From Flavobacterium sp. LPB0248 (GTDB lineage Bacteria; Bacteroidota; Bacteroidia; Flavobacteriales; Flavobacteriaceae): a stretch of 64,000 bases of DNA. The notes beneath the pieces are model-generated. The model did not search any database and had not been told where the DNA came from. It was given only the letters and a program-made list of their open reading frames with translations. The DNA lies in contig NZ_CP058246.1 of NCBI RefSeq assembly GCF_013388355.1, forward strand, positions 3,720,001 to 3,784,000, read 5' to 3'. Below are positions 1,124 to 62,397 of this stretch, one piece after another. A program made the translations under genes and the position numbers. The stretch's first letter is position 1; the number at the start of each line of letters is the position of its first letter.

Positions 1124-2803
1124 CTATTTCTTACTTATCCCTGCACTTTCAAAACTAGCCATTTCATTCAAAAAAACTTCAGCCGATTTTAAAATAGGGA
1201 AAGCTACAGCGCAGCCAGTTCCTTCTCCCAAACGCAAATCTAAATTTAATATTGGTTTTGCATCTAAATAATTTAGCAATTCTGAATGTGCTTTTTCAGC
1301 AGAACAATGGCAAAAAATAGCATTTTGTTTGATGTTCGGATTTATTTTGGAAGCAATTAAATAGGCCACAGTACAAATGAAACCATCAACGAGAATTAGC
1401 ATTTTATGATCAAAAGCAGCCAGCATTCCGCCAGCCATTTGAAGAATCTCAAAACCGCCAAAATAGGAGAGTTGTGTCATTAATTCGGTTTGACCGGAAT
1501 AATTATCTAATGCTTTTTTAAGTAAATTTTGCTTTAAAAGCAGTTTTTCGTTTTCAACTCCAGTTCCTTTTCCGATACATTCTTCAATTGGAAAACCCGT
1601 TAAAAGACTCATTAAAACAGAAGCTGTCGAGGTGTTTCCAATTCCCATTTCGCCAAAACCAATACAATTTGAACCAGATTTTGCAATATTTTCAACAATC
1701 GATTTTCCTTTCTCAAAACACAAATGAACTTCAGATTCGCTCATTGCAGGAACGTGAAGAAATGACTGTGTTCCTTTGGCAATTTTAGCATCGATTAAAT
1801 TGGCATTGGTTGGAAAATCATAATTGACACCCGAATCTACAATTGATAATTCGATATTATTCTGATTGCAAAAAACGTTTATTGCTGCGCCGCCATCTAG
1901 AAAATTATTGACCATCTGTCGCGTAACATCTTGTGGATAATCACTTACGCCATGATTTGCAATTCCGTGATCGGCTGCAAAAACTACGATATTAGGTTTT
2001 TCGATTTTCGGATTTAAAGTTTCAAAAACCGTTGCCATTTGAAAAGCTAATGCTTCTAAAGTTCCCAGAGAACCAACCGGTTTTGTTTTCGAATCTATTT
2101 TGTCTTGTAAAAGACTATAGAAATCGGATTTATCTTGAATTTTGTTTTCTGATTGTAAATCGAAAGAAGAAACATTTATTGACTTAATTTCGTTGATTTC
2201 AGTACAGATTGGAGCTTCCGATTTTTGTTTCCAATGCAATTGCTGCAGCATTGGCTGATTATTATAATTGGTTGCTGGTTTCCCGATGCAGAAATAGCCA
2301 AGCGGTTCTATATTTTCGGGTAAATCGAGAATTTTTTTAAACTGATAATAATTTAGAATCGAAACCCAGCCCATTCCGTAGCCTTGTTCTGTAAGCGAAA
2401 GCCAGATATTCTGTGCCGCACAAACCGAACTGAATTTTACGGCTTCGTTGCTGCCAATTGTTCCAATCGTAAACTGATTAAGAACAGAACGATCATAAGC
2501 AATAACAAGTCCGATTGGAGCTTCTTCAATTGCTTCGAGTTTTAGCGATTTGTAAAGTTCTTTCTGCTCAAGATTATCGGTAAGTTCTTCAGCCTTTTTG
2601 TTGTAATCTAAAAAGAGGTTTTTAATTGAGCTTTTAACTTCATGCGATTTAATGAGATAATATCTAGTAGCATCCGTTAGTCCTACAGAAGGTGCCCAAT
2701 GTCCCGCCTGTAAAGCTTTCTGGATCACTTCATCGGGAACTTCATCGGCTGTAAAATGTCGTGTGTCGCGGCGTGATTTTAATATATCGTCTAAATTACT
2801 CAT
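1124..2803 (-). CDS. BluB-CobT fusion: DMB synthase / nicotinate-nucleotide:DMB phosphoribosyltransferase
   Basis: One 559-residue chain carries two B12 lower-ligand enzymes. Residues ~1-205 are a nitroreductase-fold BluB (SRRDTRHF at 10-17), which makes 5,6-dimethylbenzimidazole from reduced FMN. After a variable linker at ~205-230, residues ~230-550 are CobT, which transfers phosphoribose to that base. CobT hallmarks are KPVGSLG at 241-247, GEMGIGNTS at 384-392 and GEGTG at 526-530 containing the catalytic Glu527. The two enzymes are usually separate proteins; the fusion would pass the base directly to its user. Start: an ATG ten codons upstream lies in a TTGGAATTT-word repeat, so the ATG before SNLDD was chosen. 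It lies downstream of cobU. Confidence 0.93.
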   Translation of the reverse strand: MSNLDDILKSRRDTRHFTADEVPDEVIQKALQAGHWAPSVGLTDATRYYLIKSHEVKSSIKNLFLDYNKKAEELTDNLEQKELYKSLKLEAIEEAPIGLVIAYDRSVLNQFTIGTIGSNEAVKFSSVCAAQNIWLSLTEQGYGMGWVSILNYYQFKKILDLPENIEPLGYFCIGKPATNYNNQPMLQQLHWKQKSEAPICTEINEIKSINVSSFDLQSENKIQDKSDFYSLLQDKIDSKTKPVGSLGTLEALAFQMATVFETLNPKIEKPNIVVFAADHGIANHGVSDYPQDVTRQMVNNFLDGGAAINVFCNQNNIELSIVDSGVNYDFPTNANLIDAKIAKGTQSFLHVPAMSESEVHLCFEKGKSIVENIAKSGSNCIGFGEMGIGNTSTASVLMSLLTGFPIEECIGKGTGVENEKLLLKQNLLKKALDNYSGQTELMTQLSYFGGFEILQMAGGMLAAFDHKMLILVDGFICTVAYLIASKINPNIKQNAIFCHCSAEKAHSELLNYLDAKPILNLDLRLGEGTGCAVAFPILKSAEVFLNEMASFESAGISKK

Positions 2804-2952
2804 TTCTTTAAATTCCAATTTTTTAAATTCCAAATTCCAAATCAGAAAATGGAAAGATTCTAGTAAAGGTAAAGCATAGCTTTGGAATTTGGAGTTTAAA
2901 ACTTAGAATTTCGTCTCAATTTATTGGAATTTGGAATTTTCTGTATTGGAAT
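2804..2952. repeat. Degenerate AATTCCAA/TTGGAATT word-repeat spacer
   Basis: The gap between cobU and bluB-cobT is built from repeated words. AATTCCAA occurs on the left side and TTGGAATT several times on the right side, so the two halves can pair into a long A+T-rich hairpin. A -7-like TACCTTTA on the minus strand (2862-2869) lies between the halves and could start bluB-cobT transcription. Confidence 0.6.
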
Positions 2953-3462
2953 TTATCCTTTTATTTTAACCGGAATTCCAGAAACCATCAGCACAACTTC
3001 GTTGGCATTTGCAGCAAGAAATTGATTCATCCAACCTTGAAGCTCAACAAATTTTCTTCCGATATGCGTTTCTGCATGAACACCCATACCGATTTCATTT
3101 GTTACAATAATGATATTAGCATTTTCGTGCTTTGCAATAGCAAGAAATTCTCTTTTAGCTTCTTCCAAGCTCAAAGCCACATCATTTTTAGTATCTATAA
3201 AAAAATTAGTTAGCCAAAGAGTAACGCAATCAATCAAAGCCGTTTTACCAGAAAAATCAATTTCACTTAAATATTTCTCTTTTTCAATATTTGTCCAATG
3301 TTCATCTCTTTCCTGCTGATGGCGATCAATTCGATTTTGAAAATCAGCATCCCATTTTCGTGCAGTTGCTACATATATAGGAGAGTTGGAAAGTTCTAAA
3401 GCAAGTTTCTGTGCATAACCGCTTTTTCCCGAACGTTCACCGCCAGTTACCAAGTAAATCAT
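2953..3462 (-). CDS. cobU: Adenosylcobinamide kinase / adenosylcobinamide-phosphate guanylyltransferase
   Basis: CobU phosphorylates adenosylcobinamide and then attaches GMP, giving AdoCbi-GDP, the partner of the CobT product in B12 assembly. The 169-residue length fits the family. The P-loop GGERSGKS is at residues 7-14, and the guanylylated histidine is probably H48 in RIDRHQQER. A second nucleotide-binding strand reads IIVTNEIGMGVH, also typical. It lies upstream of bluB-cobT on the same strand. The last salvage steps (CobS, CobC) are not in the window. Confidence 0.94.
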   Translation of the reverse strand: MIYLVTGGERSGKSGYAQKLALELSNSPIYVATARKWDADFQNRIDRHQQERDEHWTNIEKEKYLSEIDFSGKTALIDCVTLWLTNFFIDTKNDVALSLEEAKREFLAIAKHENANIIIVTNEIGMGVHAETHIGRKFVELQGWMNQFLAANANEVVLMVSGIPVKIKG

Positions 3463-3474
3463 TATGTATAATGG

Positions 3475-3501
3475 TTAATTATTAATTGTTAGTTGTTAAT
3501 T
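3475..3501. repeat. Left arm of 27-bp inverted repeat around four-helix-bundle gene
   Basis: This 27-bp A+T-rich sequence, beginning TTAATTATTAATT, matches the reverse complement of 3870-3896 at 24 of 27 positions. It supplies the last codons and the stop of the four-helix-bundle gene. Low complexity makes chance similarity possible. Confidence 0.45.
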
Positions 3502-3862
3502 TTTTTACTTCTGATTGTTTTTTGGAAGTTTTAAGGATGCTAGTTATTAATTTTAGTATTGTAATAGCATCATTATAAATGTTTTTAAATTCTTTTTCGT
3601 TGAGATAATCAGTGGCTTTTAATAATTCTAGCCAATAGACAGTTTCATTAGCTTCTTTTTGAGCAATTGCAAACTTATGAATAAAATCGCTTTTACTCTC
3701 AGCATGTTCAGCTTCTCGAATCATTGCGCCAACACTAGTGCCAGATCTTAAAAGTTGCTTCGCAAGAATAAACTCTTTTTTATCATTATTTAAATATTGA
3801 TATAGTTTGACGATTCTTATAGCAAAATCAAAACTTTTATCTCGAACAATATTATTTTTCAT
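3482..3862 (-). CDS. Four helix bundle protein (S23/23S-IVS family)
   Basis: A 126-residue helical protein matches the four-helix-bundle (TIGR02436) family first noticed inside rRNA intervening sequences. Features are the SFDFAIRIVKLYQYL start, the central LLRSGTSVGAMIREAEHAES and the later YWLELLKATDYL. No catalytic residues are known for the family, and the function is uncertain. It interrupts an otherwise B12-related run between cobU and the cysteine-rich gene, and is flanked by near-identical inverted A+T-rich repeats. That arrangement suggests a self-contained inserted cassette. Confidence 0.85.
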   Translation of the reverse strand: MKNNIVRDKSFDFAIRIVKLYQYLNNDKKEFILAKQLLRSGTSVGAMIREAEHAESKSDFIHKFAIAQKEANETVYWLELLKATDYLNEKEFKNIYNDAITILKLITSILKTSKKQSEVKKLTTNN

Positions 3863-3869
3863 AATTTAC

Positions 3870-3896
3870 AATTAACAATTTATAATTAATAATTAA
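3870..3896. repeat. Right arm of 27-bp inverted repeat around four-helix-bundle gene
   Basis: This is the inverted partner of 3475-3501 (24 of 27 matches), ending in TTAATAATTAA. It starts 8 bases upstream of the four-helix-bundle ATG and includes the stop codon of the following cysteine-rich gene. Confidence 0.45.
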
Positions 3897-4255
3897 TACG
3901 GGCAATGTCGGCAGTTATTCCCGCAGCAGGTTCCTCTTTTTAGATGAAACCAGGTTTTAAAAACATAATTGCCATTTTCGATATAATAATCAATTCCCTC
4001 AATTAAATTATCAGTTTTAGGTAATAGCATAGCTTTATTGTTAAGCGCTTTTTTTGGAGTTAAGGTTTCGATATAAGCATCAATTTTATCTTCGCAGGCT
4101 TCTTTAAAGCATACAGGACAAAGGCAGTCGCCTCCGTCTGAAAGATTGAAAATAGGTGGGTAATCATTACACCAGCACTTATTTTCAGGTGAAGTGTCAC
4201 CGCACGAAAAAGCGGTCTCACAACTGGAGCAGATTTTTGTTTTTGGCACACTCAT
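3893..4255 (-). CDS. Cysteine-rich CWC / DUF5522 protein
   Basis: This 120-residue protein has two cysteine clusters. Residues ~9-54 form a Cys-rich CWC domain (CSSC, CWCND, CLCPVC). Residues ~85-120 match DUF5522, ending FHLKRGTCCGNNCRHCPY. Thirteen cysteines suggest zinc or Fe-S binding, but no function is established. The ATG before SVPKTK was chosen over one 28 codons upstream, because that N-terminal extension lies in the shared promoter region and looks non-coding. It is divergent from btuF and heads the minus-strand run to cobU and bluB-cobT. Confidence 0.8.
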   Translation of the reverse strand: MSVPKTKICSSCETAFSCGDTSPENKCWCNDYPPIFNLSDGGDCLCPVCFKEACEDKIDAYIETLTPKKALNNKAMLLPKTDNLIEGIDYYIENGNYVFKTWFHLKRGTCCGNNCRHCPY

Positions 4256-4289
4256 CAAATAAAAGGCTATTTGTTTAAATTTGTACGAA

Positions 4290-4328
4290 TAAAGGTAAAC
4301 AAAAAAAATAGAAATTGATTTACCTTTG
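4290..4328. promoter_or_regulatory. Divergent -7-type promoter elements for btuF and the CWC gene
   Basis: TACCTTTG (4321-4328) matches the Bacteroidota -7 consensus TAnnTTTG about 20 bases before the btuF ATG. TACCTTTA on the minus strand (4290-4297) sits upstream of the CWC gene. No TTG -33 element is at the expected spacing. No cobalamin-riboswitch-like structure fits in this short spacer. Confidence 0.4.
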
Positions 4329-4349
4329 TTGCCATACAAAACATAAAAT

Positions 4350-5492
4350 ATGAAATATTTTTTCCATAAATTACCAGTCGTTTTTTTACTTCTTTTAGTA
4401 ATTAGCTGTAAAAAAAATGAAACGCAAACTACTGTAAAATCTGATGTTTCAGCAGAAAGTATTGAATATGCTTCTGGTCTTTCGATTGTAAAAAAAGATG
4501 GTTATTCGATTGTAAATGTGATTAATCCGTGGCCAAATGCTAAGGAGAAATTTACTTACATTTTAGAAGAAAAAGACGTACAAATTCCAGACAGTTTAAA
4601 AAAATATCCAGCTATAAAAGTTCCATTAGAAAGTGTTGTGGTAACTTCAACAACAAATATTCCTTTTTTAGAAATGCTGGAAGTTGAGAATAAATTGGTC
4701 GGATTTCCGCATACGGATTATATTTCTTCTGAAAAAACACGAGCATTAATTGATAAAGGTTCTGTGAAAAACGTTGGACAAAATGAAAAATTGAACATCG
4801 AACAATTAATAGAATTGTCACCAGATTTGATCGTTACTTTTGGTGTCGATAATAATAATCCGATGTTGGATAATTTGAAAAAAAGCGGTTTGAAAGTGCT
4901 TATTCAAGGCGATTGGATGGAACAGTCTCCGCTAGGAAAAGCAGAATGGATTAAACTTTACGGCGCTTTATTTGGAAAAGAAGAAAAAGCAAAAGAACTT
5001 TTTGATAAAATCGTAGAAAGCTACAATCAGGCAAAAAAACTGGTTGAAGAGAAACCTGCAACTTCAAAAGTGTTGTATGGTTCTATGTATGAAGATGTTT
5101 GGTACGTTGCCAAAGGAAACAGCTGGGTAGCGCAGTTTATGAAAGATGCAAAAGCTAATTATTTATGGGCCGATTTGAAAGGAACTGGAAGTGAAGGCTT
5201 GTCGTTTGAGAAAGTTTTAGATAAAGCGAAAACGGCTAATATCTGGATTGCTTCAGGATCTTTTAAGAGTTTAGATGAATTACAAAAAGCAAATCCGCAT
5301 TACTCAGAATTTGATGCTTTCAAAAACAAAAGTGTATACAATTTTGAAGGAAAGATGGGTGCAACAGGAGGAACGGTTTACTATGAATTGGCACCAAGCC
5401 GTCCCGATTTAGTTTTAAAAGATTATATCAAGATATTTCATCCCGATTTATTGACAGGTTACGAATTTACTTTTGCATCAAAACTGAATTAA
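4350..5492 (+). CDS. btuF: Cobalamin ABC transporter substrate-binding lipoprotein (BtuF-like)
   Basis: A 380-residue lipoprotein: a hydrophobic signal ends in the lipobox VISC, with Cys20 as the lipidation site. The body is a periplasmic-binding-protein fold of the BtuF/FepB type, with an N-lobe around TNIPFLEMLEVENKLVGFP, an inter-lobe IEQLIELSPDLIVTFG, and a C-lobe. Its substrate is inferred as cobalamin or cobinamide from the adjacent cobU and bluB-cobT genes; iron-siderophore is the alternative. The stop is followed after one base by the permease start. Confidence 0.85.
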   Translation: MKYFFHKLPVVFLLLLVISCKKNETQTTVKSDVSAESIEYASGLSIVKKDGYSIVNVINPWPNAKEKFTYILEEKDVQIPDSLKKYPAIKVPLESVVVTSTTNIPFLEMLEVENKLVGFPHTDYISSEKTRALIDKGSVKNVGQNEKLNIEQLIELSPDLIVTFGVDNNNPMLDNLKKSGLKVLIQGDWMEQSPLGKAEWIKLYGALFGKEEKAKELFDKIVESYNQAKKLVEEKPATSKVLYGSMYEDVWYVAKGNSWVAQFMKDAKANYLWADLKGTGSEGLSFEKVLDKAKTANIWIASGSFKSLDELQKANPHYSEFDAFKNKSVYNFEGKMGATGGTVYYELAPSRPDLVLKDYIKIFHPDLLTGYEFTFASKLN

Positions 5493-5493
5493 A

Positions 5494-6519
5494 TTGGCGA
5501 ATAAAAAAAGAAATACCATTTTATTTGTCGTATTGACTTTTGGACTTTTACTAATGTTTTTTGCAAGCATTAGTTTAGGATCAGTTACAATTCCGCTAAA
5601 AGATGTTTTTGCAAGTTTAACTGGAGGTCAAGCAACAAAATCAACTTGGGAATATATTATCATTAATTATCGTCTTCCAAAAGCCATTACGGCAGTTTTG
5701 GTTGGAACGGGACTCTCAATGAGCGGACTTTTAATGCAGACTTTATTTCGAAATCCGCTTGCAGGACCTTATGTTTTAGGCTTAAGTTCTGGAGCGAGTC
5801 TTGGAGTTGCTTTTGTGATTTTAGGAGCAGGATTTCTGCCTTCTTTTTTAAGTGTAATTGCTTTGTCTTCTTACGGAATTGTTTTGGCATCTACTTTAGG
5901 AAGTACATTGGTTTTATTTTTGGTTTTAGTCGTTTCGCAACGATTGCGCGATACAATGGCTATTTTAATTGTGGGGTTAATGTTCGGAAGTTTTACCACC
6001 GCAATCGTTAGTGTCCTAACATATTTTAGTACGGCAGAACAGCTTCAGAAATTTACTTTTTGGTCTATGGGAAATCTTGGAAATCTCTCTTGGACAACTA
6101 TTGTAATTTTAACTGTCTGTGTTGGAATCGGATTGCTTTTAAGTGCCAAAAGTATTAAACCATTAAACGCTTTGCTTCTTGGAGAAAATTATGCGAAAAG
6201 TATGGGATTGAATTTTAAACGGGCTCGATTAATAATCATATTTGCAACCAGCATATTATCAGGAGCGATTACAGCATTCGCGGGACCAATTGCTTTTGTC
6301 GGTTTAGCAGTGCCTCATATTGCAAAATTGACTTTTCAGACCAGTAATCATACTATTTTGTTTTGGAGTACTTTATTTTTTGGTTCCATAATAATGTTAT
6401 TTTGTGATATTGTATCACAAATGCCAGGTTTTGATGTCACGCTTCCAATAAATGCCGTTACGTCTATAATTGGTGCGCCGGTTGTTATTTGGCTCTTAGT
6501 TCGAAAAAGAAATTTTTAA
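5494..6519 (+). CDS. btuC: FecCD/BtuC-family ABC transporter permease
   Basis: A 341-residue inner-membrane permease with about ten hydrophobic segments. Family motifs are NYRLPKAITAVLVGTGLSMSG, LFRNPLAGPYVLGLSSGASLG and the late GPIAFVGLAVPHIAKL coupling helix. It would carry B12 across the inner membrane with BtuF and BtuD. The start is TTG, one base after the btuF stop (TAA-A-TTG). No ATG lies upstream in frame, and the next ATG would cut the first membrane segment, so TTG with translational coupling is preferred. Confidence 0.88.
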   Translation: MANKKRNTILFVVLTFGLLLMFFASISLGSVTIPLKDVFASLTGGQATKSTWEYIIINYRLPKAITAVLVGTGLSMSGLLMQTLFRNPLAGPYVLGLSSGASLGVAFVILGAGFLPSFLSVIALSSYGIVLASTLGSTLVLFLVLVVSQRLRDTMAILIVGLMFGSFTTAIVSVLTYFSTAEQLQKFTFWSMGNLGNLSWTTIVILTVCVGIGLLLSAKSIKPLNALLLGENYAKSMGLNFKRARLIIIFATSILSGAITAFAGPIAFVGLAVPHIAKLTFQTSNHTILFWSTLFFGSIIMLFCDIVSQMPGFDVTLPINAVTSIIGAPVVIWLLVRKRNF

Positions 6520-6526
6520 AGATTAT

Positions 6527-6617
6527 TTAGCCACAGATTAAAAGAATTAAAAGGATTTTTGCCCATCTAAAGAAAAACTTAGAACCTCAGCATCTTAGTA
6601 ACTTAGAACCTCAAAAA
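6527..6617. repeat. Word-repeat spacer between btuC and btuD
   Basis: The gap holds two kinds of repeated word: GCCACAGATTAAAAG/ATTAAAAGG, also seen near 27090, and CTTAGAACCTCAGCATCTTAG, also seen in modified form near 39085. It is not coding and lies inside an apparent operon. Confidence 0.55.
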
Positions 6618-6618
6618 A

Positions 6619-7395
6619 ATGAAAAACATCTTAACAACTGCGAATCTAAATATTGGATATAAATCCAAGAAAGGAGTTACGACTATTGCTGAGAACCTAA
6701 ATCTTAATCTTGAAGCAGGTAAATTAATTACTTTAATCGGAGCAAACGGAATTGGAAAGTCAACTTTATTACGAACGATTACAGGAATTCAGAAACCTTT
6801 ATCTGGGAAAGTATATTTGAATGAAAGAAATATTTCAGACTATCAACCTTTAGAACTGGCACAAAATCTAAGTTTGGTTTTGACCGAAAAATTGCCACCT
6901 AGTAATCTTTCCGTTTTTGAATTGGTGGCTTTAGGTCGCCAACCTTATACCAATTGGGTCGATAAATTGTCTGACGAAGATGTTCTAAAAGTTCAAGAAG
7001 CAATGACTTTGACGCAAATCGAGCATTTAGCTTCAAAAAAACATTTTCAAATTAGTGATGGGCAATTGCAGAAAGTTTTAATTGCAAGAGCTTTGGCGCA
7101 AGATACGCCATTAATTATTCTAGACGAACCTACAACACATCTTGATTTACTGCATAAAGTTTCTTTGTTTAAATTATTAAAGAAGCTAACTCAGGAAACT
7201 CAAAAATGTATCTTGTTTTCAACGCATGATATCGATCTGGCTATTCAGTTAAGTGATGAAATGATTATGATGACGCCAGAAAGTATAGTGCAAGATCAGC
7301 CTTGTAATTTAATTTCAAACGGAAGCTTCAGCAATTTATTCAAAGATGAGCATATCATTTTTGATGCTGAAAAAGGGAAGTTTATTGTGAGTTAG
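6619..7395 (+). CDS. btuD: ABC transporter ATP-binding protein (BtuD-like)
   Basis: A 258-residue ATPase of the FecE/BtuD type that powers the BtuC permease. Walker A is GANGIGKST (41-49), Walker B is LIILDEP, and the switch histidine follows in FSTHDIDLA. The signature motif reads ISDGQ rather than LSGGQ, a conservative but unusual change at a nucleotide-contacting loop. It is separated from btuC by a word-repeat spacer. The last 14 bases overlap the convergent membrane-protein gene. Confidence 0.88.
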   Translation: MKNILTTANLNIGYKSKKGVTTIAENLNLNLEAGKLITLIGANGIGKSTLLRTITGIQKPLSGKVYLNERNISDYQPLELAQNLSLVLTEKLPPSNLSVFELVALGRQPYTNWVDKLSDEDVLKVQEAMTLTQIEHLASKKHFQISDGQLQKVLIARALAQDTPLIILDEPTTHLDLLHKVSLFKLLKKLTQETQKCILFSTHDIDLAIQLSDEMIMMTPESIVQDQPCNLISNGSFSNLFKDEHIIFDAEKGKFIVS

Positions 7396-22544: not shown

Positions 22545-23456
22545 TTATTTAATACAGCTGATCAGTGTTTTTTCTAAATCAGTAAACTGAAATTCGAAAC
22601 CTGTTTTCTGAATTTTTTCTGAAGAAACACGTTGTCCAGTTAAAACTGCTATGCTCATTTCTCCCAATAAAATCTTTAGTACAAAAGGAGGAACATTAGG
22701 AAGCCAAATAGCATAATCAAACAATTTAGCGAATGTTTTAGAAAATCGGGCATTAGTTGTGTTGTCTGTTACACAAGCGTTGTAGGCGCCTTCTAGTTTT
22801 GTGTCTTCAATACTTTTTAAGTAAATCTGACATAAATCTTCAGCATGAATCCAAGGGAGATATTGTTTACCCGAACCCAATACCGCGCCAAAACCTGATT
22901 TAAAGGTCGGAATCATTTTTTTTATAAAACCTTCTTCTTTTCCAAAAACGATACCAGTTCGAATTTTGACAGTTCGAATGTTTAAAGAATTCATTTTATC
23001 AGCAGCATTTTCCCATTTTTGACAAGTAATGCCTAAAAAGTCATTTGCTGGAGGCGTGTCTTCGGTACAGATTTTATGACTGGTTACAGCACCATAAATA
23101 CCAACAGCCGATGCAGAAACAAATGCGTCTAGTTTTTTATTGTTGTTTTCCAAAACCGAAAAAATCATTTCTATAGGTCTAATTCGGCTTTCAAGAATAG
23201 CTCTTTTTCGTCTTTTGGTCCATCTTTTTTCTACTATTCCTTCACCTGCAAGGTGAATAATGTAATCGGCATTTAGGATAGCATTTTTATCAATGTAATT
23301 TTTTTTGATATCCCATTTGTAATAAGTGACTCTTGGTGTATTTTCTCTATCAGATCGGCTCAAAACAGACACAGAAAATCCGGCTTCGATGAGAACATCT
23401 GTTAAATGTTTTCCAATGAAACCGCTTCCGCCTGTTAATAGAACATTTTGAGCCAT
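22545..23456 (-). CDS. TIGR01777 family epimerase (YfcH/SDR39U1-like)
   Basis: A 303-residue extended-SDR protein. It starts with the Rossmann loop GGSGFIGKHL (~8-17). The mid-region motifs are IIHLAGEGI, RIRTGIVFG-like IRTVKIRTGIVFG, and LPWIHAEDL. The C-terminal DUF1731-like part reads PPFVLKILLGEMS and GQRVSSEKI. Substrate unknown; the E. coli relative is YfcH. Divergent from the TetR gene across a short palindromic promoter region. Confidence 0.9.
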   Translation of the reverse strand: MAQNVLLTGGSGFIGKHLTDVLIEAGFSVSVLSRSDRENTPRVTYYKWDIKKNYIDKNAILNADYIIHLAGEGIVEKRWTKRRKRAILESRIRPIEMIFSVLENNNKKLDAFVSASAVGIYGAVTSHKICTEDTPPANDFLGITCQKWENAADKMNSLNIRTVKIRTGIVFGKEEGFIKKMIPTFKSGFGAVLGSGKQYLPWIHAEDLCQIYLKSIEDTKLEGAYNACVTDNTTNARFSKTFAKLFDYAIWLPNVPPFVLKILLGEMSIAVLTGQRVSSEKIQKTGFEFQFTDLEKTLISCIK

Positions 23457-23501
23457 AATAGTTTATAATATATTTAACAGTATATAGTGTTTAAGGATTA
23501 G

Positions 23502-23530
23502 TAAAGGTACTTAAACAATGTTTACCTTTA
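23502..23530. promoter_or_regulatory. Inverted repeat between divergent genes; promoter or TetR operator candidate
   Basis: TAAAGGTA (23502-23509) and TACCTTTA (23523-23530) are perfect inverted 8-mers, 13 bases apart. Each is also a TAnnTTTR -7-like element facing its own gene. The site could be back-to-back promoters, an operator for the adjacent TetR protein, or both. The same TACCTTTA word occurs at other promoters in the window, which favours the promoter reading. Confidence 0.4.
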
Positions 23531-23554
23531 TGGCAAATTCTAAATTTTAATAAA

Positions 23555-24214
23555 ATGGCGACTAAAAAAAAGGTAATTACCAAAGATGATATCGTTTCAA
23601 AATATATGGAAGAGGTTTTAGAAAAAGGTCAAAAACCAAAATCGGTTTATCATTTTGCCAAAGAAAATGATTTTACAGAAGCCGAATTTTATGCTTTTTT
23701 TGGAACATTAGAAGGTTTAGAAAAAGAAATATTCCGACTGTTTTTTGAAAACACAGTTAATCTTCTTCATAAGAATGAGGAATATCAGGGATATGACATG
23801 AAGAATAAAATGCTGAGTTTTTATTTTACTTTTTTTGAAATCCTGACTGCCAACAGAAGCTATGTTTTGCAATCGCTTAAGATTGATAAAAATCCGATTA
23901 AAAATTTAGTTCAGTTAACTACGCTTCGAAATAGTTTTAAAGAATATGTTGCTGAAATCCTGACAGACGATTACAGATTGGAACAGGAAAGATTTCAAAA
24001 ATTTCAAGAAAAAGCCATTCAGGAATCTTCTTGGGTGCAATTAATGATGACAATCAAATTTTGGATGGAAGACGAATCTCCGGCTTTCGAAAAGACAGAT
24101 ATTTTTATTGAAAAATCTGTTAATGCTTCATTCGAATTAATGAATGTTGCGCCAATGAATCATTTGATTGATTTCGGGAAATTTTTGTTTAAAGAAAAAG
24201 TATACAGCAGATAA
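23555..24214 (+). CDS. TetR-like transcriptional regulator
   Basis: A 219-residue helical protein. The N-terminus (~10-60) is a TetR-type HTH (SKYMEEVLEKGQKPKSVYHF and FTEAEFYAFFGTLEGLEKEI), and an all-helical ligand domain follows. Its last base is shared with the ABC1 kinase start (TAATG), so the two are co-translated. This gene order is common in flavobacteria. It likely controls its own operon and possibly the divergent epimerase. The ligand is unknown. Confidence 0.82.
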   Translation: MATKKKVITKDDIVSKYMEEVLEKGQKPKSVYHFAKENDFTEAEFYAFFGTLEGLEKEIFRLFFENTVNLLHKNEEYQGYDMKNKMLSFYFTFFEILTANRSYVLQSLKIDKNPIKNLVQLTTLRNSFKEYVAEILTDDYRLEQERFQKFQEKAIQESSWVQLMMTIKFWMEDESPAFEKTDIFIEKSVNASFELMNVAPMNHLIDFGKFLFKEKVYSR

Positions 24215-25518
24215 TGAAAACAATCGATTATATTCCAACCTCAAAAATAGAAAGAGCGGGAAAATTGGTTCAAACGGGTGCTAAAATCGGTGTAAACTAT
24301 GTAAAACATTATGCCGAAAAAATGGTTAATCCAGATTTGAGCCGTGACAAACTAAACGAGAACAACGCCGAAGATATTTATGATGGACTAAAAAGCTTAA
24401 AAGGAAGTGCGCTTAAAGTCGCTCAAATGCTAAGCATGGATAAAAACTTTCTTCCGCAGGCTTATGTAGAAAAGTTTTCGTTATCGCAATTTTCTGTTCC
24501 GCCACTTTCTGCACCTTTGGTTTTAAAAACATTCAAAAGCAATTTTGGAAAAACGCCTTATGAAATTTTTGACGAATTCAATCCGAATTCGGTAAACGCA
24601 GCAAGTATTGGCCAAGTGCATTTGGCAAAAAAAGGCGACAAAAAACTGGCTGTTAAAATTCAATATCCAGGTGTTGCCAATAGCATTTCTTCTGATTTGG
24701 CTTTGGTGAAACCAATTGCAATTAGAATGTTTAATCTGCAGGGAAAAGATTCTGATAAATATTTCAAAGAAGTCGAAGACAAACTGATTGAAGAAACTAA
24801 CTATTTGTTAGAATTACAACAAAGCCAAGAAGTTGTTAAGGCTTGCAGTAAGATTGAAAACATCACTTTTCCGAATTACTATCCAGAGTTTTCATCAGAG
24901 AAAATCATTACGATGGATTGGATGACTGGAATTCATCTTTCGGAGTTCACAGCAAAAAACACCGACCAAGAAGCAGGCGATAAACTAGGTCAGGCGCTTT
25001 GGGATTTTTATATGTATCAAATTCATGTTTTAAGAAAAGTGCATGCAGATCCGCATCCAGGGAATTTTTTGGTTGATGATCAAAACCAGTTAATCGCTTT
25101 AGATTTTGGCTGTATGAAACAAATTCCAGATGATTTCTACACTCCGTATTTTGAGTTGATTAATAAAAATGTCATTACAGACGAGAAGCTTTTCAATCAG
25201 AAATTATTCGAATTGGAGATTCTTCGTCCAGACGATACGCCTGCAGAAATAGAATATTTCACCGAAATGTTTCATGATTTGCTATCTCTCTTTACAAGAC
25301 CTTTTCAAAACGAAACTTTCGATTTTGCCGATGAAGAATTCTTTAACGCAATTGCCCAATTAGGAAAACGCTTTTCGGAAGATACAAATCTCAAAAAAAT
25401 GAACGGAAATCGTGGCTCTAAGCACTTTATTTATATGAATCGTACTTTCTTTGGTTTGTATAATTTAATGTTCGATTTGAAAGCGAAAATTGTGGTTGAG
25501 AATTATTTGAAATACTAA
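24214..25518 (+). CDS. ABC1/UbiB-family atypical kinase
   Basis: A 434-residue protein kinase-like (ADCK/UbiB) protein. The Ala-rich nucleotide loop is NAASIGQVHLA, the invariant lysine follows in KLAVKIQYPG, and the catalytic region has VHADPHPGNFLV and LIALDFGCM. The family KxGQ motif reads KVAQ here. UbiB-type proteins support quinone synthesis or lipid homeostasis through ATPase activity. It is translationally coupled to the TetR-like gene and ends at a strong terminator and repeats. Confidence 0.9.
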   Translation: MKTIDYIPTSKIERAGKLVQTGAKIGVNYVKHYAEKMVNPDLSRDKLNENNAEDIYDGLKSLKGSALKVAQMLSMDKNFLPQAYVEKFSLSQFSVPPLSAPLVLKTFKSNFGKTPYEIFDEFNPNSVNAASIGQVHLAKKGDKKLAVKIQYPGVANSISSDLALVKPIAIRMFNLQGKDSDKYFKEVEDKLIEETNYLLELQQSQEVVKACSKIENITFPNYYPEFSSEKIITMDWMTGIHLSEFTAKNTDQEAGDKLGQALWDFYMYQIHVLRKVHADPHPGNFLVDDQNQLIALDFGCMKQIPDDFYTPYFELINKNVITDEKLFNQKLFELEILRPDDTPAEIEYFTEMFHDLLSLFTRPFQNETFDFADEEFFNAIAQLGKRFSEDTNLKKMNGNRGSKHFIYMNRTFFGLYNLMFDLKAKIVVENYLKY

Positions 25519-25777: not shown

Positions 25778-27073
25778 TTATTTCAAAATCCCAGCCTTGT
25801 AAGTCGCAATCGCACGATCTCTTGCAAAAGCATGATCAACCATAGGCTCATTATAACCAAAATCAAATTCAGGAATCCATTTGCGGATATATTCTCCTTT
25901 TGGGTCAAATTTTTGCTGCTGAATTTCGGGATTAAAAACTCTGAAATAAGGCGCAGCATCACAACCCGTTCCTGCCGCCCATTGCCAGTTTCCTACATTT
26001 GAAGCTAATTCGAAATCTAGAAGTTTTTCTGCGAAATAAGCTTCGCCCCATTGCCAGTTAATGAGTAAATGTTTGCATAAAAAACTCGCTACCACCATAC
26101 GCACGCGATTATGCATATAACCCGTTTCATTCAGCTGACGCATTCCAGCATCAACCATTGGATATCCTGTAGTTCCAGAACACCAGCGTTTGAAATCTTC
26201 TTCATTATTGCGCCATTGGATTCCGTCATAATTGGATTTGAAGTTATGATTGACACAATTCGGGAAACTAAAGAGAATCTGAATAAAGAATTCTCTCCAG
26301 ATTAATTCGCTTAAAAAAGTTTGATTTTTTCGGTTTGCCCAGTTTACTAATTTTCTAATGCTAACAGTACCAAAACGTAAATGTGGTGAAAGATAAGAAG
26401 TGCTGTCCAAAGCTGGAAAATCTCTCGTTTCTTTGTAATTGGCTATTTGTGTTAAGTTATGTGGTTTTACTTTTATGGAACTTCTGTCAAAACCAATTTC
26501 TTTTAAATCAGGAAAGTTAAATTGGTTTTTTGCAAAATTAGATTGAAAAGGCTTGATATCATATTCAGGAGCAGAACCCGAAAAATGGTATTTCTCTAGC
26601 CATTTGTTTTTATAAGGCGTGTAAACGGTATATGGAAGTCCGTCTGCTTTTGTGATCTCTTTTTCTTCGAAAATTACATGATCTTTAAAAGAAAAAGATT
26701 TAATATGGTTTTCTTTTAATAACGCAGTTATGATTGTATCACGCTTGATGGCAAACGGTTCATAATCTTTATTAAAGAAAACGCTTTGAATATCAAATTC
26801 TTCAATTAACGATTTCCAAACATCTGTAGTTTTTCCTTTTTTGATTAAGATGGAAGAATCTAGTTTGTTTAATTCTGCGTTTGTTTTTTGAAGTGAATCA
26901 TAAATGAAAGTTACTCTAGCATCATTTTTTGGAAGATGTTCCAGAATATCATCGTCGAAAATAAAAAGAGGAACAACAGGGAAATCTGATTGCAAGGCAT
27001 GAAATAGTCCTGTGTTATCTTCTAAACGCAAATCGCGTCTAAACCAGAATAAAGTAACTTTTTGTTTTGTCAT
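25778..27073 (-). CDS. phr: Deoxyribodipyrimidine photolyase (cryptochrome/photolyase family, class I CPD)
   Basis: A 431-residue FAD photolyase that repairs UV pyrimidine dimers using blue light. The N-terminal antenna domain starts FWFRRDLRLEDN. The C-terminal FAD domain has TSYLSPHLRFG, WREFFIQ, YPMVDAGMRQL, MHNRVRMVVASFL and NWQWAAGTGCDA, the core of class I CPD photolyases. It is the last gene of the carotenoid run. Co-control with the CarH-like regulator is inferred from position. Confidence 0.93.
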   Translation of the reverse strand: MTKQKVTLFWFRRDLRLEDNTGLFHALQSDFPVVPLFIFDDDILEHLPKNDARVTFIYDSLQKTNAELNKLDSSILIKKGKTTDVWKSLIEEFDIQSVFFNKDYEPFAIKRDTIITALLKENHIKSFSFKDHVIFEEKEITKADGLPYTVYTPYKNKWLEKYHFSGSAPEYDIKPFQSNFAKNQFNFPDLKEIGFDRSSIKVKPHNLTQIANYKETRDFPALDSTSYLSPHLRFGTVSIRKLVNWANRKNQTFLSELIWREFFIQILFSFPNCVNHNFKSNYDGIQWRNNEEDFKRWCSGTTGYPMVDAGMRQLNETGYMHNRVRMVVASFLCKHLLINWQWGEAYFAEKLLDFELASNVGNWQWAAGTGCDAAPYFRVFNPEIQQQKFDPKGEYIRKWIPEFDFGYNEPMVDHAFARDRAIATYKAGILK

Positions 27074-27139: not shown

Positions 27140-27613
27140 TTATTTTTTAGAATTAAACAATTCTTCAATTTTATTAAATCTATAGTCGAAAATACTTTTC
27201 AGTTTATTTTTTACGACTAAAAGATTCATGATTCTGCCTAGAATTCCAAATGGGAGAGCGTAATGAACAACGTCTGTCATTTTGGTTCCTCCATCTGGTG
27301 TTGGTTCAAAGAAATGTTTGTGATGCCATAGTTTATAAGGCCCGAATTGCTGAATGTCTACAAAATATTCGTTTTCTTGACAAGCTGTAATTTCGGTAAC
27401 CCAAGAAATTTTGATTCCGAAAAGCTGTTTTAAAGTGTAGGTAATAATTTGTCCGTGATACATACGCTTTCCGTCGTAATCCTGAATTTGGAAATTCATA
27501 TTATCGAGTGTAATAGTTTGAAGGTTTTTTGGACTTGAGAAAAAATCCCAGCACTCTTCTACGCTAGCATTGATATGTTGTACGGTTACTATTTTGTATA
27601 ATTTCATAATCAA
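27140..27613 (-). CDS. SRPBCC-family ligand-binding protein
   Basis: A 157-residue START/Bet v1-type (SRPBCC) protein with a large hydrophobic pocket. It begins with VQHINASVEECWDFFSSPKNL, has a central WVTEITACQENEYFVD, and then the cavity strand KLWHHKHFFEP. Such proteins are common in carotenoid clusters, but their ligand is unproven. It lies between crtZ and the photolyase. A start two codons later (MKLYK) is equally possible. Confidence 0.85.
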   Translation of the reverse strand: MIMKLYKIVTVQHINASVEECWDFFSSPKNLQTITLDNMNFQIQDYDGKRMYHGQIITYTLKQLFGIKISWVTEITACQENEYFVDIQQFGPYKLWHHKHFFEPTPDGGTKMTDVVHYALPFGILGRIMNLLVVKNKLKSIFDYRFNKIEELFNSKK

Positions 27614-27641: not shown

Positions 27642-28082
27642 CTACATTTTATAATATTTAAATGGCACGAACAACATTCCGAAACATTCTCCTTTTTCTT
27701 TTTGTAAATGTTTGTGGTGTATTTTATGAGCTTTTCTAAGTCCGATGAGGTATTTGTTTTTGGTGTTTTTAAACCATTTAAATCGCTGATGAATTAAAAC
27801 ATCGTGAATTAAAAAATAACAAGCGCCATAGAGTGTAATGCCACATGCAATAAAAAACAGATAATTAAATCCGCCCTCGACGCCAAAGTAGAATAAAATA
27901 ATACTCGGAGTGGCAAAAATGACGAAGAAAATATCGTTGCGTTCAAAAGCGTTTTCGTATTTCGGCTTATGATGATCGGCATGAAAATACCACATAAAAC
28001 CATGCATAACATATTTATGCGTTAGCCATGTCACACATTCCATAAATAGAAAAACGCCTAAAAAGATTAGAAAAGAAATCAT
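27642..28082 (-). CDS. crtZ: Beta-carotene 3-hydroxylase
   Basis: A 146-residue di-iron membrane hydroxylase adding 3- and 3'-hydroxyls to beta-carotene to make zeaxanthin. All four histidine clusters are present: HKYVMH, HADHH, HDVLIHQRF and HKIHH. About four hydrophobic segments fit an inner-membrane protein. The cyclase CrtY that would make its substrate is not in the window. Separated from crtB by a REP-like element. Confidence 0.92.
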   Translation of the reverse strand: MISFLIFLGVFLFMECVTWLTHKYVMHGFMWYFHADHHKPKYENAFERNDIFFVIFATPSIILFYFGVEGGFNYLFFIACGITLYGACYFLIHDVLIHQRFKWFKNTKNKYLIGLRKAHKIHHKHLQKEKGECFGMLFVPFKYYKM

Positions 28083-28340: not shown

Positions 28341-29180
28341 TTATACCAACTTCAATTTATAAGTTACAAAAGATTGCGCCAAAAGCCCAGCTTTTGTATA
28401 ATTAGAAACTCGAATCCGAGCATTTCCAATTTCGTAATATGGTGTGTTTTTTAACTTTTTTAATAGTTTTTTATAATAAACATAAGCGGTATAAACTCCA
28501 AATTTGGCTTCGATAGGCAACTTTACAATTCCTTGATAGGCAATTCTAAAATCTTCTTCAATTTCTTTTATAATCTGGTTTTTTGAATCTTCATTAAAGT
28601 TATTCAAGTTTATGCCTGGGAAATAAGAACGGTTTAAGATCGTGTTATCGTCTTTCAAATCCCTAAGAAAATTTACTTTCTGAAAAGCCGACCCTAAACG
28701 CATGGCTTCGTATTTCAGTTGTTCGTATTTGTGCTCTTTTCCAGTTACAAAAACTTTTAGGCACATTAAACCCACAACATCGGCAGAACCATAAATGTAA
28801 TCGATGTACTCGGTTTGTGTTTGGTAATTCGATTTTATGAGATCCATTTTCATGCTTTTTAAAAATGCCTGAACCAAATCGTCTGTAATATTATATTCTT
28901 TGACAGTTTGTTGGAAAGAATTCAAAATAGGATTTAAGCTAATGCCTAATTCCATAGCTTTATAATATTCTTTTTCAAAATCTTCAATCAAGTATTCTTT
29001 TTCGTAGCCGTGAAATGAATCTACAATTTCATCGGCAAAACGTACAAATCCGTAAATACTGTAAATAGCATCACGAATACTTGGCGAAAGCATTTTTACA
29101 GCAAGAGAAAATGAAGTGCTGTAATTTTTGGTAACCAATTTGCTGCATTTGAAAGAAACGGCGTCGAATAGTGATTTCAT
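28341..29180 (-). CDS. crtB: Phytoene synthase
   Basis: A 279-residue squalene/phytoene synthase that joins two geranylgeranyl diphosphates into phytoene. Both Asp-rich motifs are present: FADEIVDS (~45-52) and FLRDLKDD. The N-terminal KNYSTSFSLA is typical. It starts three bases after the crtI stop, so they are co-translated. Confidence 0.94.
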   Translation of the reverse strand: MKSLFDAVSFKCSKLVTKNYSTSFSLAVKMLSPSIRDAIYSIYGFVRFADEIVDSFHGYEKEYLIEDFEKEYYKAMELGISLNPILNSFQQTVKEYNITDDLVQAFLKSMKMDLIKSNYQTQTEYIDYIYGSADVVGLMCLKVFVTGKEHKYEQLKYEAMRLGSAFQKVNFLRDLKDDNTILNRSYFPGINLNNFNEDSKNQIIKEIEEDFRIAYQGIVKLPIEAKFGVYTAYVYYKKLLKKLKNTPYYEIGNARIRVSNYTKAGLLAQSFVTYKLKLV

Positions 29181-29182
29181 TT

Positions 29183-30649
29183 TTAAGATCTAAAAGATTT
29201 TTGAATTAATTCAGCTGCTAGTTTTCCTGAAATTAAAGCAGGCGGAACACCTGGACCAGGAACGGTTAATTGTCCTGTAAAATATAGATTTCTGACTTTT
29301 TTGCTTTTTAATTTTGGTCTCAAAAAAGCCGTTTGCAATAAAGTATTGGCCATTCCGTAAGCATTTCCTTTGTAGGCATTATAATCGGCAACAAAGTCGT
29401 TTTTACAGAATGATCTCTTAAAGATAATGTTATTTTTAATTTTTTGCTGGGTAAGTTCTTCAAAACGAGAAATGATTTTTTCAAAATATTCTTCTCTCAG
29501 TTCTTCCGTATCTTCGATTCCAGGTGCAAGCGGAATCAAGAAAAATCCAGATTCCATTCCGTCTGGCGCCGCAGTTTTATCTGTTTTAGATGGAAAGTTA
29601 GCGTAGAACAACGGGGCTTCTGGCCACTTCGGTTGATCATAAATAGCTGCTGCGTGCTGATTGAAATCGACATCAAAAAACAAAGCATGATGCGAAATGT
29701 TTTCTATTTTTTTATTAAAACCAATAAAAAATAGGAGAGAAGAAGGTGCAAAAACCCTGTTTTCCCAATATTTTTCAGAATACATTCTGTGTTCGCTGTC
29801 AAGTAAAGTCTCAGAATGCTGATAATCGGCACCACTTAAAACAATATCTGCTTTTAAAGTCTCGCCATTAATTACGATTCCGGTTGCAGTTTTATTCTCA
29901 ACAATAATTTTTTCTATTGGTGAATTGGTTTTAATCGTCACGCCAAGTTCCAAAGCCAGTTTTTCGATTCCCCGAATAACATCAAACATTCCCGTTTTTG
30001 GATGCCAAGTTCCGAGACCGAAATCGGCATAATTCATAAAATTATAGAATGAAGGGGTTTTTTTCGGTTTTGCTCCGAGAAATAAAACGGGAAACTCCAA
30101 AATCTGGATCAGTCTTTCGTTTTTGAAATTTTTGCGAATATCAGCACTTACATTCTTGAAAAATTGATCAAGCTTTAATGCAGTTTCTTTAGTGATTAAC
30201 TCGAGAGGAGAAATTCCAGGACGATAAACTAAATTTTTAATCGCGATATCATAATTGCTTTTGGCTTGGTTAATAAAGTTTTGCAGTTTTTGACCGCTTC
30301 CTTTTTCTATGGTTTCAAAAGTGCATTTTATTTCTTCTAAATTGTCGTAGATACTGATAAAATCATTGATCCCAAAATAAACCCTATAAGCAGGATTTAA
30401 TTTTATCAGTTCATAATAATCAGAAGGTTTTTTATTGAAATCCTGAAAAAAGCGTTCAAACACATCTGGCATCCAATACCAGCTTGGTCCCATATCAAAA
30501 GTAAAACCATCTTCTTTAAATTGTCTTGCGCGCCCGCCAATTGTATTGTTTTTTTCGTAAACAGTAACCGTGTTTCCTTGTTGAGCAAGGTAACATGCGG
30601 CTGCTAAAGAAGAGAAGCCTGAGCCTATTATTTGGATAGTTTTCTTCAT
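29183..30649 (-). CDS. crtI: Phytoene desaturase (CrtI type)
   Basis: A 488-residue FAD-dependent desaturase converting phytoene to lycopene. The N-terminal dinucleotide-binding motif is GSGFSSLAAA followed by YEKNNTIGGRAR. The C-terminal signature is YFTGQLTVPGPGVPPALISG. Together with CrtB it makes lycopene. It follows the MerR-type regulator gene with 39 bases between, probably as one transcript. Confidence 0.94.
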   Translation of the reverse strand: MKKTIQIIGSGFSSLAAACYLAQQGNTVTVYEKNNTIGGRARQFKEDGFTFDMGPSWYWMPDVFERFFQDFNKKPSDYYELIKLNPAYRVYFGINDFISIYDNLEEIKCTFETIEKGSGQKLQNFINQAKSNYDIAIKNLVYRPGISPLELITKETALKLDQFFKNVSADIRKNFKNERLIQILEFPVLFLGAKPKKTPSFYNFMNYADFGLGTWHPKTGMFDVIRGIEKLALELGVTIKTNSPIEKIIVENKTATGIVINGETLKADIVLSGADYQHSETLLDSEHRMYSEKYWENRVFAPSSLLFFIGFNKKIENISHHALFFDVDFNQHAAAIYDQPKWPEAPLFYANFPSKTDKTAAPDGMESGFFLIPLAPGIEDTEELREEYFEKIISRFEELTQQKIKNNIIFKRSFCKNDFVADYNAYKGNAYGMANTLLQTAFLRPKLKSKKVRNLYFTGQLTVPGPGVPPALISGKLAAELIQKSFRS

Positions 30650-30688
30650 TTGTTTAACAAATATAAGAAAAACTTAAACAAAAATAAA

Positions 30689-31588
30689 TTAAAGCATGTT
30701 AATAGTTTCTTCCATAGAATCGAAAATGCGGATTCTGTCGCTAAGGACTTTTTGGTCAATGTGTTCGACCATTTTACCCATAAGCCAGATCTCGTTGTTT
30801 TCCTGCAATAATTTCTGTCCCATCGATTTAACATATTGATTGATTACGCTTCTGTCTGGCTGAACAGTCATAAAAGAAATAAACGTAATATTCTCAAAGT
30901 GTTTGGTTAAATCCTGAAGGTTTTCAATCGGCATGCTTTCTCCAAGATAAATGGTTTTGTAACCTTTATCAAGGATTTCATATTGCAAGTACAATAATCC
31001 GATCTGGTGAATTTCGTTTAACGGAAGTGATAAAACAAAAATGCGGTCGGTTTTGATTGGTTTTCTAATCTGAAGGCTTTCGGTGTAAATTAAGATTTTC
31101 TGCTTTATTAAATGACTCATAAAATGTTCATTAGCAGGGGTAATAGTTTCAGATTGCCACAATAATCCAAGCTCTTTTAAAAGAGGCAGAAAATGTTCTT
31201 TAAAAACTTCTTTAAATGTTTTTTCAGTAATAAGCCAATCGAATGTGTTAAAGAATAACTCCTGATCAAAGTTCATCATCGCCATCTTAAAAGAGGTGAT
31301 AGCGTAGTTTTGAGAGTTTTTCTTTGAGATTATTTCGCGTACCAGTTGTGGTATCTTTTCTTCAGGATATGTTGCGATTTTAGAAATCTTGTAGCCGTAC
31401 TCGTGCAGTAACGTAATATTTAAAAGTTTCTGCAGATTATGAAGGTTGTAAAATCTAATATTAGTATCGGTTCGCATTGGTTCAAGGATGTTGTATCTCT
31501 TTTCCCAGATGCGTATGGTATGCGCTTTTATTCCAGATAAGTTCTCAAGATCTTTAATACTGAAAACAGTTTTAATATTGTTTATCAT
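30689..31588 (-). CDS. MerR-family regulator with B12-binding domain (CarH/LitR-like)
   Basis: A 299-residue regulator. The N-terminal MerR HTH (~8-75, FSIKDLENLSGIKAHTIRIWEKRYN) binds DNA. A helical light-sensing-type domain follows (~95-180), then a Rossmann B12-binding domain (~185-295). The W-x9-EH motif is intact (W, nine residues, EH in LLWQSETITPANEH). The E-x-H-x-x-G base-on motif is intact as EIHQIG. CarH-type proteins hold adenosylcobalamin and repress carotenoid genes until light breaks the cofactor. It heads the crtI-crtB-crtZ-SRPBCC-photolyase run. Confidence 0.88.
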   Translation of the reverse strand: MINNIKTVFSIKDLENLSGIKAHTIRIWEKRYNILEPMRTDTNIRFYNLHNLQKLLNITLLHEYGYKISKIATYPEEKIPQLVREIISKKNSQNYAITSFKMAMMNFDQELFFNTFDWLITEKTFKEVFKEHFLPLLKELGLLWQSETITPANEHFMSHLIKQKILIYTESLQIRKPIKTDRIFVLSLPLNEIHQIGLLYLQYEILDKGYKTIYLGESMPIENLQDLTKHFENITFISFMTVQPDRSVINQYVKSMGQKLLQENNEIWLMGKMVEHIDQKVLSDRIRIFDSMEETINML

Positions 31589-31606
31589 TTTTCGCGATTA
31601 AGTCAA

Positions 31607-31614
31607 CAAATGTA
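31607..31614 (-). promoter_or_regulatory. -7 element upstream of the CarH-like regulator
   Basis: TACATTTG on the minus strand matches TAnnTTTG 18 bases before the ATG. There is no TTG at the usual distance, which would fit a regulated promoter. Confidence 0.45.
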
Positions 31615-62309: not shown

Positions 62310-62397
62310 AATAGGGAGCTGTTTCCCGCTATGCGCTCCAATCTTTTGCTTTTTAAAGAAAAAAGCAAAAGGATTTCCGCTCCTATCGGGGCTAGGG
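62310..62397. repeat. AGCTGTTTCCCGCT hairpin element in the rRNA leader
   Basis: Outer words GAGCTGTTTCCCGC and ATCGGGGCTAGGG, with an inner hairpin ATCTTTTGCTTTTT / AAAAAAGCAAAAGGAT. From memory, elements of this type recur in Flavobacterium genomes; only one copy is in this window. A 134-residue frame across it (62054-62458) is not credible. Confidence 0.6.

Follow-up and report, generated by a model that had tools for sequence, protein, structure and literature searches.

A MerR-type gene heads a run of carotenoid and photolyase genes in the window (the whole stretch of DNA analysed, 64,000 nucleotides), and the question that this locus raises is whether its product is a light sensor that works through vitamin B12 and, if it is, on which promoters it would act. 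The first-pass annotation had read it as a B12-dependent light regulator; the sensing residues, the CarH fold, the crt/photolyase cluster and the supply of adenosylcobalamin (AdoCbl) all speak for that reading, whereas plain CarH/LitR identity does not stand. In our estimate there is a probability of about three in four that the gene encodes a CarH-like light sensor and repressor based on AdoCbl, belonging to a divergent branch in Flavobacteriia. The genes concerned are listed below.

30689-31588, minus strand: carH-like gene (MerR DNA-binding domain, four-helix B12-binding_2 domain and divergent B12 Rossmann domain)
29183-30649, minus strand: crtI-type phytoene desaturase (NF058655 CrtID, 731 bits, cut-off 640)
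28341-29180, minus strand: crtB, phytoene synthase (SQS_PSY)
27642-28082, minus strand: crtZ-like His-rich membrane hydroxylase, 146 aa (His motifs)
27140-27613, minus strand: SRPBCC-like protein (Polyketide_cyc2, 22 bits, under the cut-off of 27.4)
25778-27073, minus strand: DNA photolyase (FAD_binding_7 and DNA_photolyase)

The order MerR, crtI, crtB, crtZ, SRPBCC and photolyase, as it had been proposed for this locus, is found on one and the same strand, with the crtZ and SRPBCC calls held at "-like"; the 146-aa protein has no Pfam or NCBIfam match and takes its name from what we assume to be the His motifs of crtZ. No LOV domain was found by Pfam in the six scanned cluster proteins. In same-genus relatives with an orthologue, crtI lies 3' of carH on the same strand in 50/51 cases, and the SRPBCC and photolyase genes are also downstream in 26/51 (6.5 kb examined), while among order members outside the genus crtI follows carH in 8/18.

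The product of the reading frame at 30689-31588 (-) is a MerR protein of 299 aa, in which Pfam finds MerR_1 (E 1e-13) and B12-binding_2 (E 1.5e-7), while the Rossmann model PF02310 does not appear among its matches at E 0.001. The W-x9-EH and ExHxxG motifs that had been claimed for it are indeed present, with correct coordinates and strand, as W144-x9-E154-H155 and E192-x-H194-x-x-G197, and these residues align with W131, E141, H142, E175, H177 and G180 of Thermus thermophilus HB8 CarH (TtCarH). An orthologue search in 100 relatives gave 79 matches at E 1e-3, of which the 69 with E <1e-30, besides the own genome, were taken as orthologues; the query and these 69 (51 same-genus sequences and 18 from order members outside the genus) form the conservation set (n = 70). 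W144, E154, H155 and E192 are kept in 70/70 of these sequences, H194 in 68/70 and G197 in 66/70, which means that the presence of the motifs is not due to chance. All six sensing residues are also kept in 80/80 named loci, a set that partly overlaps with the genus set and with the 70 sequences. In two orthologues (L091 and L092) the lower-ligand His is lost, with Asn instead, and Wx9EH and the crt neighbourhood are kept. The recognition helix reads RIWEKRY, with R26, W28, E29, R31 and Y32 invariant in 28 sequences, and it matches the published CarH motif RxWERRY (PMC9304148) except for one Lys in place of Arg. By protein sequence, the closest named counterparts belong to Flavobacterium anhuiense and F. 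tyrosinilyticum (98%; entries that closely match the window's source may be absent from that comparison), and the family profile matches 64 of 296 phylum genomes at E 1e-20.

The AlphaFold model of the CarH-like protein (28 sequences) has a mean pLDDT of 88.4, and its top Foldseek matches are TtCarH chains (E 4e-14), which are the closest solved structures. With VIA, the comparison with the TtCarH cobalamin domain gave Z 20.9 and an rmsd of 2.5 Å over 196 residues, and other B12-domain proteins (methionine synthase, AppA, AerR) rank under CarH. Against the full-length TtCarH chain the rmsd is 10.5 Å over 267 residues at the same Z, a large value that is expected if the domains are hinged differently.

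The domains, the residues, the fold, the gene order and the conserved promoter elements with their constant spacing come straight from the computation. We infer AdoCbl binding, photolysis, the oligomer change, this protein as the binder of the promoter elements and repression as the sign of control, and the working mechanism would be as follows. In the dark, the four-helix bundle (W144, E154, H155) and the Rossmann domain would enclose AdoCbl, H194 serving as the lower ligand, and the AdoCbl-bound protein would form oligomers and settle on TTTGTTnAA half-sites overlapping the -7 box (TAnnTTTG) at the promoters of carH and crtI (PcarH and PcrtI), so blocking RNA polymerase at its own and at the crtI promoter. 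Light (blue/green) would break the Co-C bond, the protein would leave the DNA, and the carotenoid and photolyase genes would be switched on. Light-induced crt transcripts have been reported for Chryseobacterium lacus, in a paper in whose available text the word MerR is absent (PMC7064467).

The promoter elements in question are these:

31600-31614, minus strand: PcarH element TACATTTGTTGACTT, a TAnnTTTG box fused to TGTnnA, 12-26 nt before the carH start
30650-30686, minus strand: PcrtI doublet TATTTTTGTTTAAGTTTTTCTTATATTTGTTAAACAA in the carH-crtI gap, two TTTGTTnAA copies at a step of 21

TAnnTTTG is the -7 box of Bacteroidota promoters, and TGTnnA is the reverse complement of TnnACA, the published CarH half-site. 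Such half-sites are described in 11-bp direct repeats that overlap -35 or -10 (PMC9304148, PMC8156234), and our scan recovers, as a positive control, three tandem TnnACA repeats at the T. thermophilus HB8 carH promoter. The motif TAnnTTTGTnnA stands before carH in 126 of 131 promoters (the counts exclude L082, a fused ORF, and the aligned promoter sets exclude the 5/131 without the motif, namely L084, L116, L164, L171 and L178). In 50/51 genus members it is no more than 60 nt from the carH start, and in 76/80 named loci no more than 70 nt; outside the genus it is found in 4/18 order members; as a control, TnnA follows TAnnTTTG in 41 of 112 instances before other genes. Of 104 non-redundant carH promoters preselected for TAnnTTTGTnnA, 90 contain TTTGTTTA, versus 3 of 231 control promoters. 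A second copy at exactly -22 is seen in 9/43 non-redundant genus carH promoters, with no other offset above 2; among the named loci only 1/66 has this copy at PcarH, and there an offset of -8 is commonest (10/66).

At PcrtI, the second TTTGTTnAA copy of the doublet overlaps TAnnTTTG. The window doublet spans 30650-30682 and scores 41.6 with a matrix trained partly on it, against 5.3 for the runner-up position in the window. Among the 127 loci for which a crtI start was found, 46 carry a strict TGTnnA pair at step 21 and 67 a relaxed doublet at that step, leaving 60 gaps without even the relaxed doublet; in the 87 non-redundant carH-crtI gaps the corresponding counts are 23 (shuffle mean 0.12) and 32 (shuffle mean 0.007). 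Other steps in the strict count over 87 loci are 13 (9 pairs) and 8 (5 pairs). Published CarH operators consist of tandem 11-bp units, two of which make 22, whereas the PcrtI step is 21; the half-site is conserved, with step 22 at some PcarH and 21 at PcrtI, as a candidate CarH operator. A chance promoter resemblance was ruled out by the control promoters, the shuffles and the reversed-pattern controls. The own genome contains a single exact doublet (before crtI) and likewise a single copy of the reversed control, and with one mismatch allowed there are 3 doublets versus 13 for the reversed control. The CarH-like protein may bind the TTTGTTnAA motif; the halves of the PcarH and PcrtI elements could also belong to another regulator.

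Half-site motifs were also observed at two other kinds of gene. In L081 and L136 the motif lies 29 and 15 nt, respectively, before a gene that we take to be lycopene-cyclase-like, and in the order member L086 a presumably sigma-factor-like gene, whose start comes 65 nt after the half-site motif, is found between carH and crtI (~1913-1980), an arrangement in which a sensor-sigma cascade is possible.

Across relatives, a free-gap doublet pattern (steps 11-41, 100 genomes) found 54 doublets, with 42 at step 21, 7 at step 22 and the five others on five different steps, versus ~20 over all steps for the reversed pattern; 27 of the 54 sit at the carH/crtI locus. A scan with the single motif (60 genomes) gave no excess over the reversed motif, and the doublet was used in its place. 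With the looser fixed-step pattern there were 111 genus sites versus ~72 reversed, and since this is only modestly above the control, the non-canonical sites must include many chance ones. When 96 looser-pattern sites were re-read with their flanks (doublets from genomes outside the genus were left out, except G093), 44 were canonical (second copy TTTGTT) and 52 non-canonical. None of the 44 canonical sites lies inside an ORF of more than ~120 aa, versus 12/52 non-canonical ones, and an ORF starts 31-173 nt downstream of 41/44 canonical sites, 34 of these 41 belonging to recurrent families. The TA of TAnnTTTG in the second half is present in 49/63 sites.

The recurrent families that follow canonical and non-canonical sites are folE (10), crtI (8, in the re-read subset only), DUF2911 (7), fasciclin (6), TetR_C_23 (5), msrA (4), an epimerase, DUF2452 and a 101-aa family (3 each) and a bacteriorhodopsin-like family (2), and single cases include SRPBCC, CHRD, SDR and a beta-carotene dioxygenase. 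Recurrent families were checked with Pfam on one or two members each; the SRPBCC single case has no Pfam match and is named by its likeness to the window gene. The family counts are not independent, because some sites are common to the two close genomes G040 and G048. All cases of the epimerase, the 101-aa family, the rhodopsin and the dioxygenase involve non-canonical sites. One such doublet precedes the bacteriorhodopsin-like gene in two close genomes (L273 and L288, with the gene ~94 nt after the site), and another precedes the beta-carotene dioxygenase gene in L208.

By analogy, the doublet-bearing set (folE, msrA, fasciclin, TetR, DUF2911) resembles photo-oxidative regulons: in Rhodobacter, photolyase, folE2, a fasciclin gene and an SDR are under RpoE and msrA is induced by singlet oxygen (PMC7074977), and in Pseudomonas a class II LitR controls phrB and folE (PMC9758184). 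To hypothesize, one B12 light sensor in Flavobacteriia might run a global regulon against light and photo-oxidative stress, via the dual TTTGTTnAA in the -7 box at a fixed 21-bp step, with a non-bis-His photocycle and an altered cobamide-tail pocket. Such a regulon would take in crt, the photolyase cluster, folE, msrA, fasciclin, TetR-family and DUF2911 genes and, in some species, DUF2452, SRPBCC, rhodopsin and a retinal-forming dioxygenase, and we put it forward as a tentative reading, to which we would give somewhat less than even odds. Away from the carH/crtI locus, doublets of the same genus occur in 18/52 CarH-bearing and 2/9 CarH-less genomes (p 0.70), so that they are not tied to the presence of CarH, which counts against the regulon. 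The folE paralogue of the CarH-less G018 has a best score of -17.4 versus a training minimum of 18.5, folE type A in four CarH-bearing genomes likewise has no site near the training scores, and folE type A beside some carH loci has no doublet. Since neither the own housekeeping folE nor the intergenic region at 23457-23554 has a convincing site, the regulon is a claim about relatives.

Beside the photolyase gene, at window positions 22545-25518, an epimerase gene with DUF1731 (-) stands against TetR_C_23 and ABC1/UbiB-type kinase genes (+). The 98-bp divergent intergenic region between the epimerase and TetR_C_23 genes has a weak, degenerate doublet match (score -5.4), and both families bear doublets in relatives.

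The doublet could instead be a promoter read by an alternative (ECF) sigma factor, or a binding site for some other regulator, serving a photo-oxidative regulon in which carH and crtI are mere targets, and we consider this doubtful, though it deserves some weight. The 21-bp step could be accommodated by -35/-10 spacing, an ECF sigma factor might leave a comparable two-part pattern, and in at least one order member (L086) the presumed sigma-factor-like gene with the half-site motif comes after carH. However, the two halves are near-identical (TTTGTTnAA), which one would predict for a direct-repeat operator but not for -35/-10 elements, the second half shares bases with TAnnTTTG, the -7 box, whose TA is kept at the frequency given above, and each half contains the published CarH half-site TGTnnA. 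The likeness of folE, fasciclin, SDR, msrA and photolyase to the Rhodobacter RpoE/singlet-oxygen genes (PMC7074977) would also suit a sigma factor. The presence of sites in CarH-less genomes points to another regulator as well, but in the nine such genomes of the genus there are three canonical sites, none of them (0/3) before a recurrent family, and one non-canonical site before DUF2911 (G043).

To return to the CarH-like light sensor, the protein departs from canonical CarH at several positions. His132 of TtCarH is replaced by Gln145, a position at which 57/70 sequences and 78/80 named loci have Gln, and only one member of each set (1/70, 1/80) has His. The first Gly of the GG motif is Met here (the motif reads MG) and is kept in 1/70 and 0/80, the Ser of the SxT/V motif aligns with Phe (F239) although T241 is kept, and the rest of the B12 motif (x41 SxT/V x22-27 GG) is not matched. 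The dimer salt bridge R176-D201 is absent, with I193/S218 in its place, V138 is P151, and the identity to TtCarH is ~18-22%. The NCBIfam CarH equivalog NF052513 gives 69.3 bits versus a cut-off of 400, which is a strict one, as no match in 14 control genomes reached it either. It has been reported that TtCarH H132A stays mostly tetrameric in light, His132 being needed for full disassembly (PMC10442372), and that position 132 varies, with Arg in CtMerR and Gln in the photocobilin SasPcob (PMC11796333). Membership in canonical CarH is ruled out by the NF052513 score and by the loss of His132, of the first Gly of GG and of the Arg-Asp pair. On sequence grounds the protein is a divergent branch and not canonical CarH, and, because several CarH features fail, we do not file it under that name and keep CarH as the working mechanism ("works like CarH").

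As such a mechanism would need AdoCbl, the following B12 genes of the window are relevant:

1124-2833, minus strand: nitroreductase (BluB-type) fused to CobT (DBI_PRT), B12 salvage
2953-3462, minus strand: CobU, B12 salvage
4350-7395, plus strand: BtuF/BtuC/BtuD-type ABC importer (Peripla_BP_2, FecCD, ABC_tran)

The nitroreductase part at 1124-2833 is, we assume, of the BluB type, and the fusion could let one protein make and activate the lower B12 base. Just left of the window lie genes for CobS, a histidine phosphatase and a TonB receptor, the receptor gene with a cobalamin riboswitch in front of it. A transposase-like gene with rve domains (L102 13922-14896, left of the window) splits cobS from the BluB-CobT gene. 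A PduO-type adenosyltransferase is encoded in the own genome (G000:C1:3864629-3865141), and, given this enzyme and the salvage genes, AdoCbl can probably be made from salvaged corrinoid. The uptake and assembly genes that had been placed ~25 kb away are real, at 1124-7395 and 23-30 kb from carH. PduO is found in 89/100 relatives, methylmalonyl-CoA mutase in 95/100 and PF02572 in 1/100, and since the first two are widespread, the closeness of the B12 locus shows no functional link and was ruled out as evidence of coupling.

The lost residues bring in a second alternative, that the protein derives from CarH but is a plain, B12-independent repressor (as CarA and class II LitR are), released via a partner protein or another photoreceptor, and this we find unlikely. 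The PF02310 result and the loss of GG and Ser of the B12 motif, His132 and the dimer salt bridge would agree with it, as would class II LitR, which has the four-helix domain only and acts without B12 through a LOV partner (PMC9758184). Against this, constraint on Wx9EH and on the ExH of the lower ligand is almost complete (70/70 and 68/70; 80/80), CarA is without the Trp (PMC9304148), and here the Rossmann domain is present and fits TtCarH, and an AdoCbl supply exists. It is very improbable that the protein is a MerR-type activator that turns the crt genes on by promoter distortion, since, although most MerR proteins activate (PMC9478572), the elements overlap -7 and extend past it, only ~13-14 nt separate the first TTG from TAnnTTTG, less than a normal spacer, whereas MerR activators use over-long ones, and characterised CarH proteins repress (PMC8156234, PMC9304148).

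Compared with known systems, the CarH-like repressor has its domain order, fold, six residue equivalents and recognition-helix motif in common with T. thermophilus CarH (class I LitR, PDB 5C8D/5C8E), which is also flanked by crtB and photolyase genes, and TnnACA sequences, here as candidate half-sites, overlap promoters in both; unlike in T. thermophilus, the -7 box here is of the Bacteroidota type. Photocobilins are, to our knowledge, not MerR regulators. CtMerR (Chloracidobacterium) and SasPcob have in common with our protein a matching fold and a cobalamin domain with W/E/H and no His132 (PMC11796333). Class II LitR has no B12 Rossmann domain and has a LOV partner nearby, whereas here a Rossmann domain with ExHxxG is present and modelled. 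The candidate regulon shares photolyase and folE with Pseudomonas class II LitR (PMC9758184), and photolyase, folE2, SDR, fasciclin and msrA with Rhodobacter RpoE/ChrR (PMC7074977), with different sensors, namely the LOV partner and an anti-sigma factor, respectively.

A MerR gene with a vitamin B12-binding domain upstream of zeaxanthin genes was already known in Flavobacteriaceae: it was described in strain GF1, and its authors suggested regulation under photo-oxidative stress (PMC6974559). It is the same kind of gene (our locus L153 bears the GF1 name), and, as far as the available text of that report goes, the residue, promoter and regulon analysis is found only here. In Nonlabens, too, the crt cluster is headed by a MerR gene (PMC11855829). 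MliR of Bizionia was rejected as an orthologue, being described as without an effector domain (PMC9478572), and the papers on Dokdonia PRO95 and on rhodopsins of marine Flavobacteriia (PMC3587595, PMC5932025) were set aside, with no MerR or LitR in their text. In our searches of the open-licence PMC literature we found no operator or regulon for a B12 light sensor of Flavobacteria; what is new here, and what we consider worth following, is that a promoter element with a constant step is conserved and that it reappears in relatives ahead of genes linked to light damage.

Flavobacteria are common in sunlit water and soil, and, if the doublet is the operator of this protein, salvaged B12 would gate genes for pterin and for protein repair in addition to those for pigments, and in some species perhaps those for rhodopsin. 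The Gln in place of His132 offers a natural test of whether CarH-type switching needs bis-His ligation. As a minor observation, a Flavo-1 sRNA (Rfam RF01705) lies at window positions 62318-62397, near the rRNA gene at the right end.
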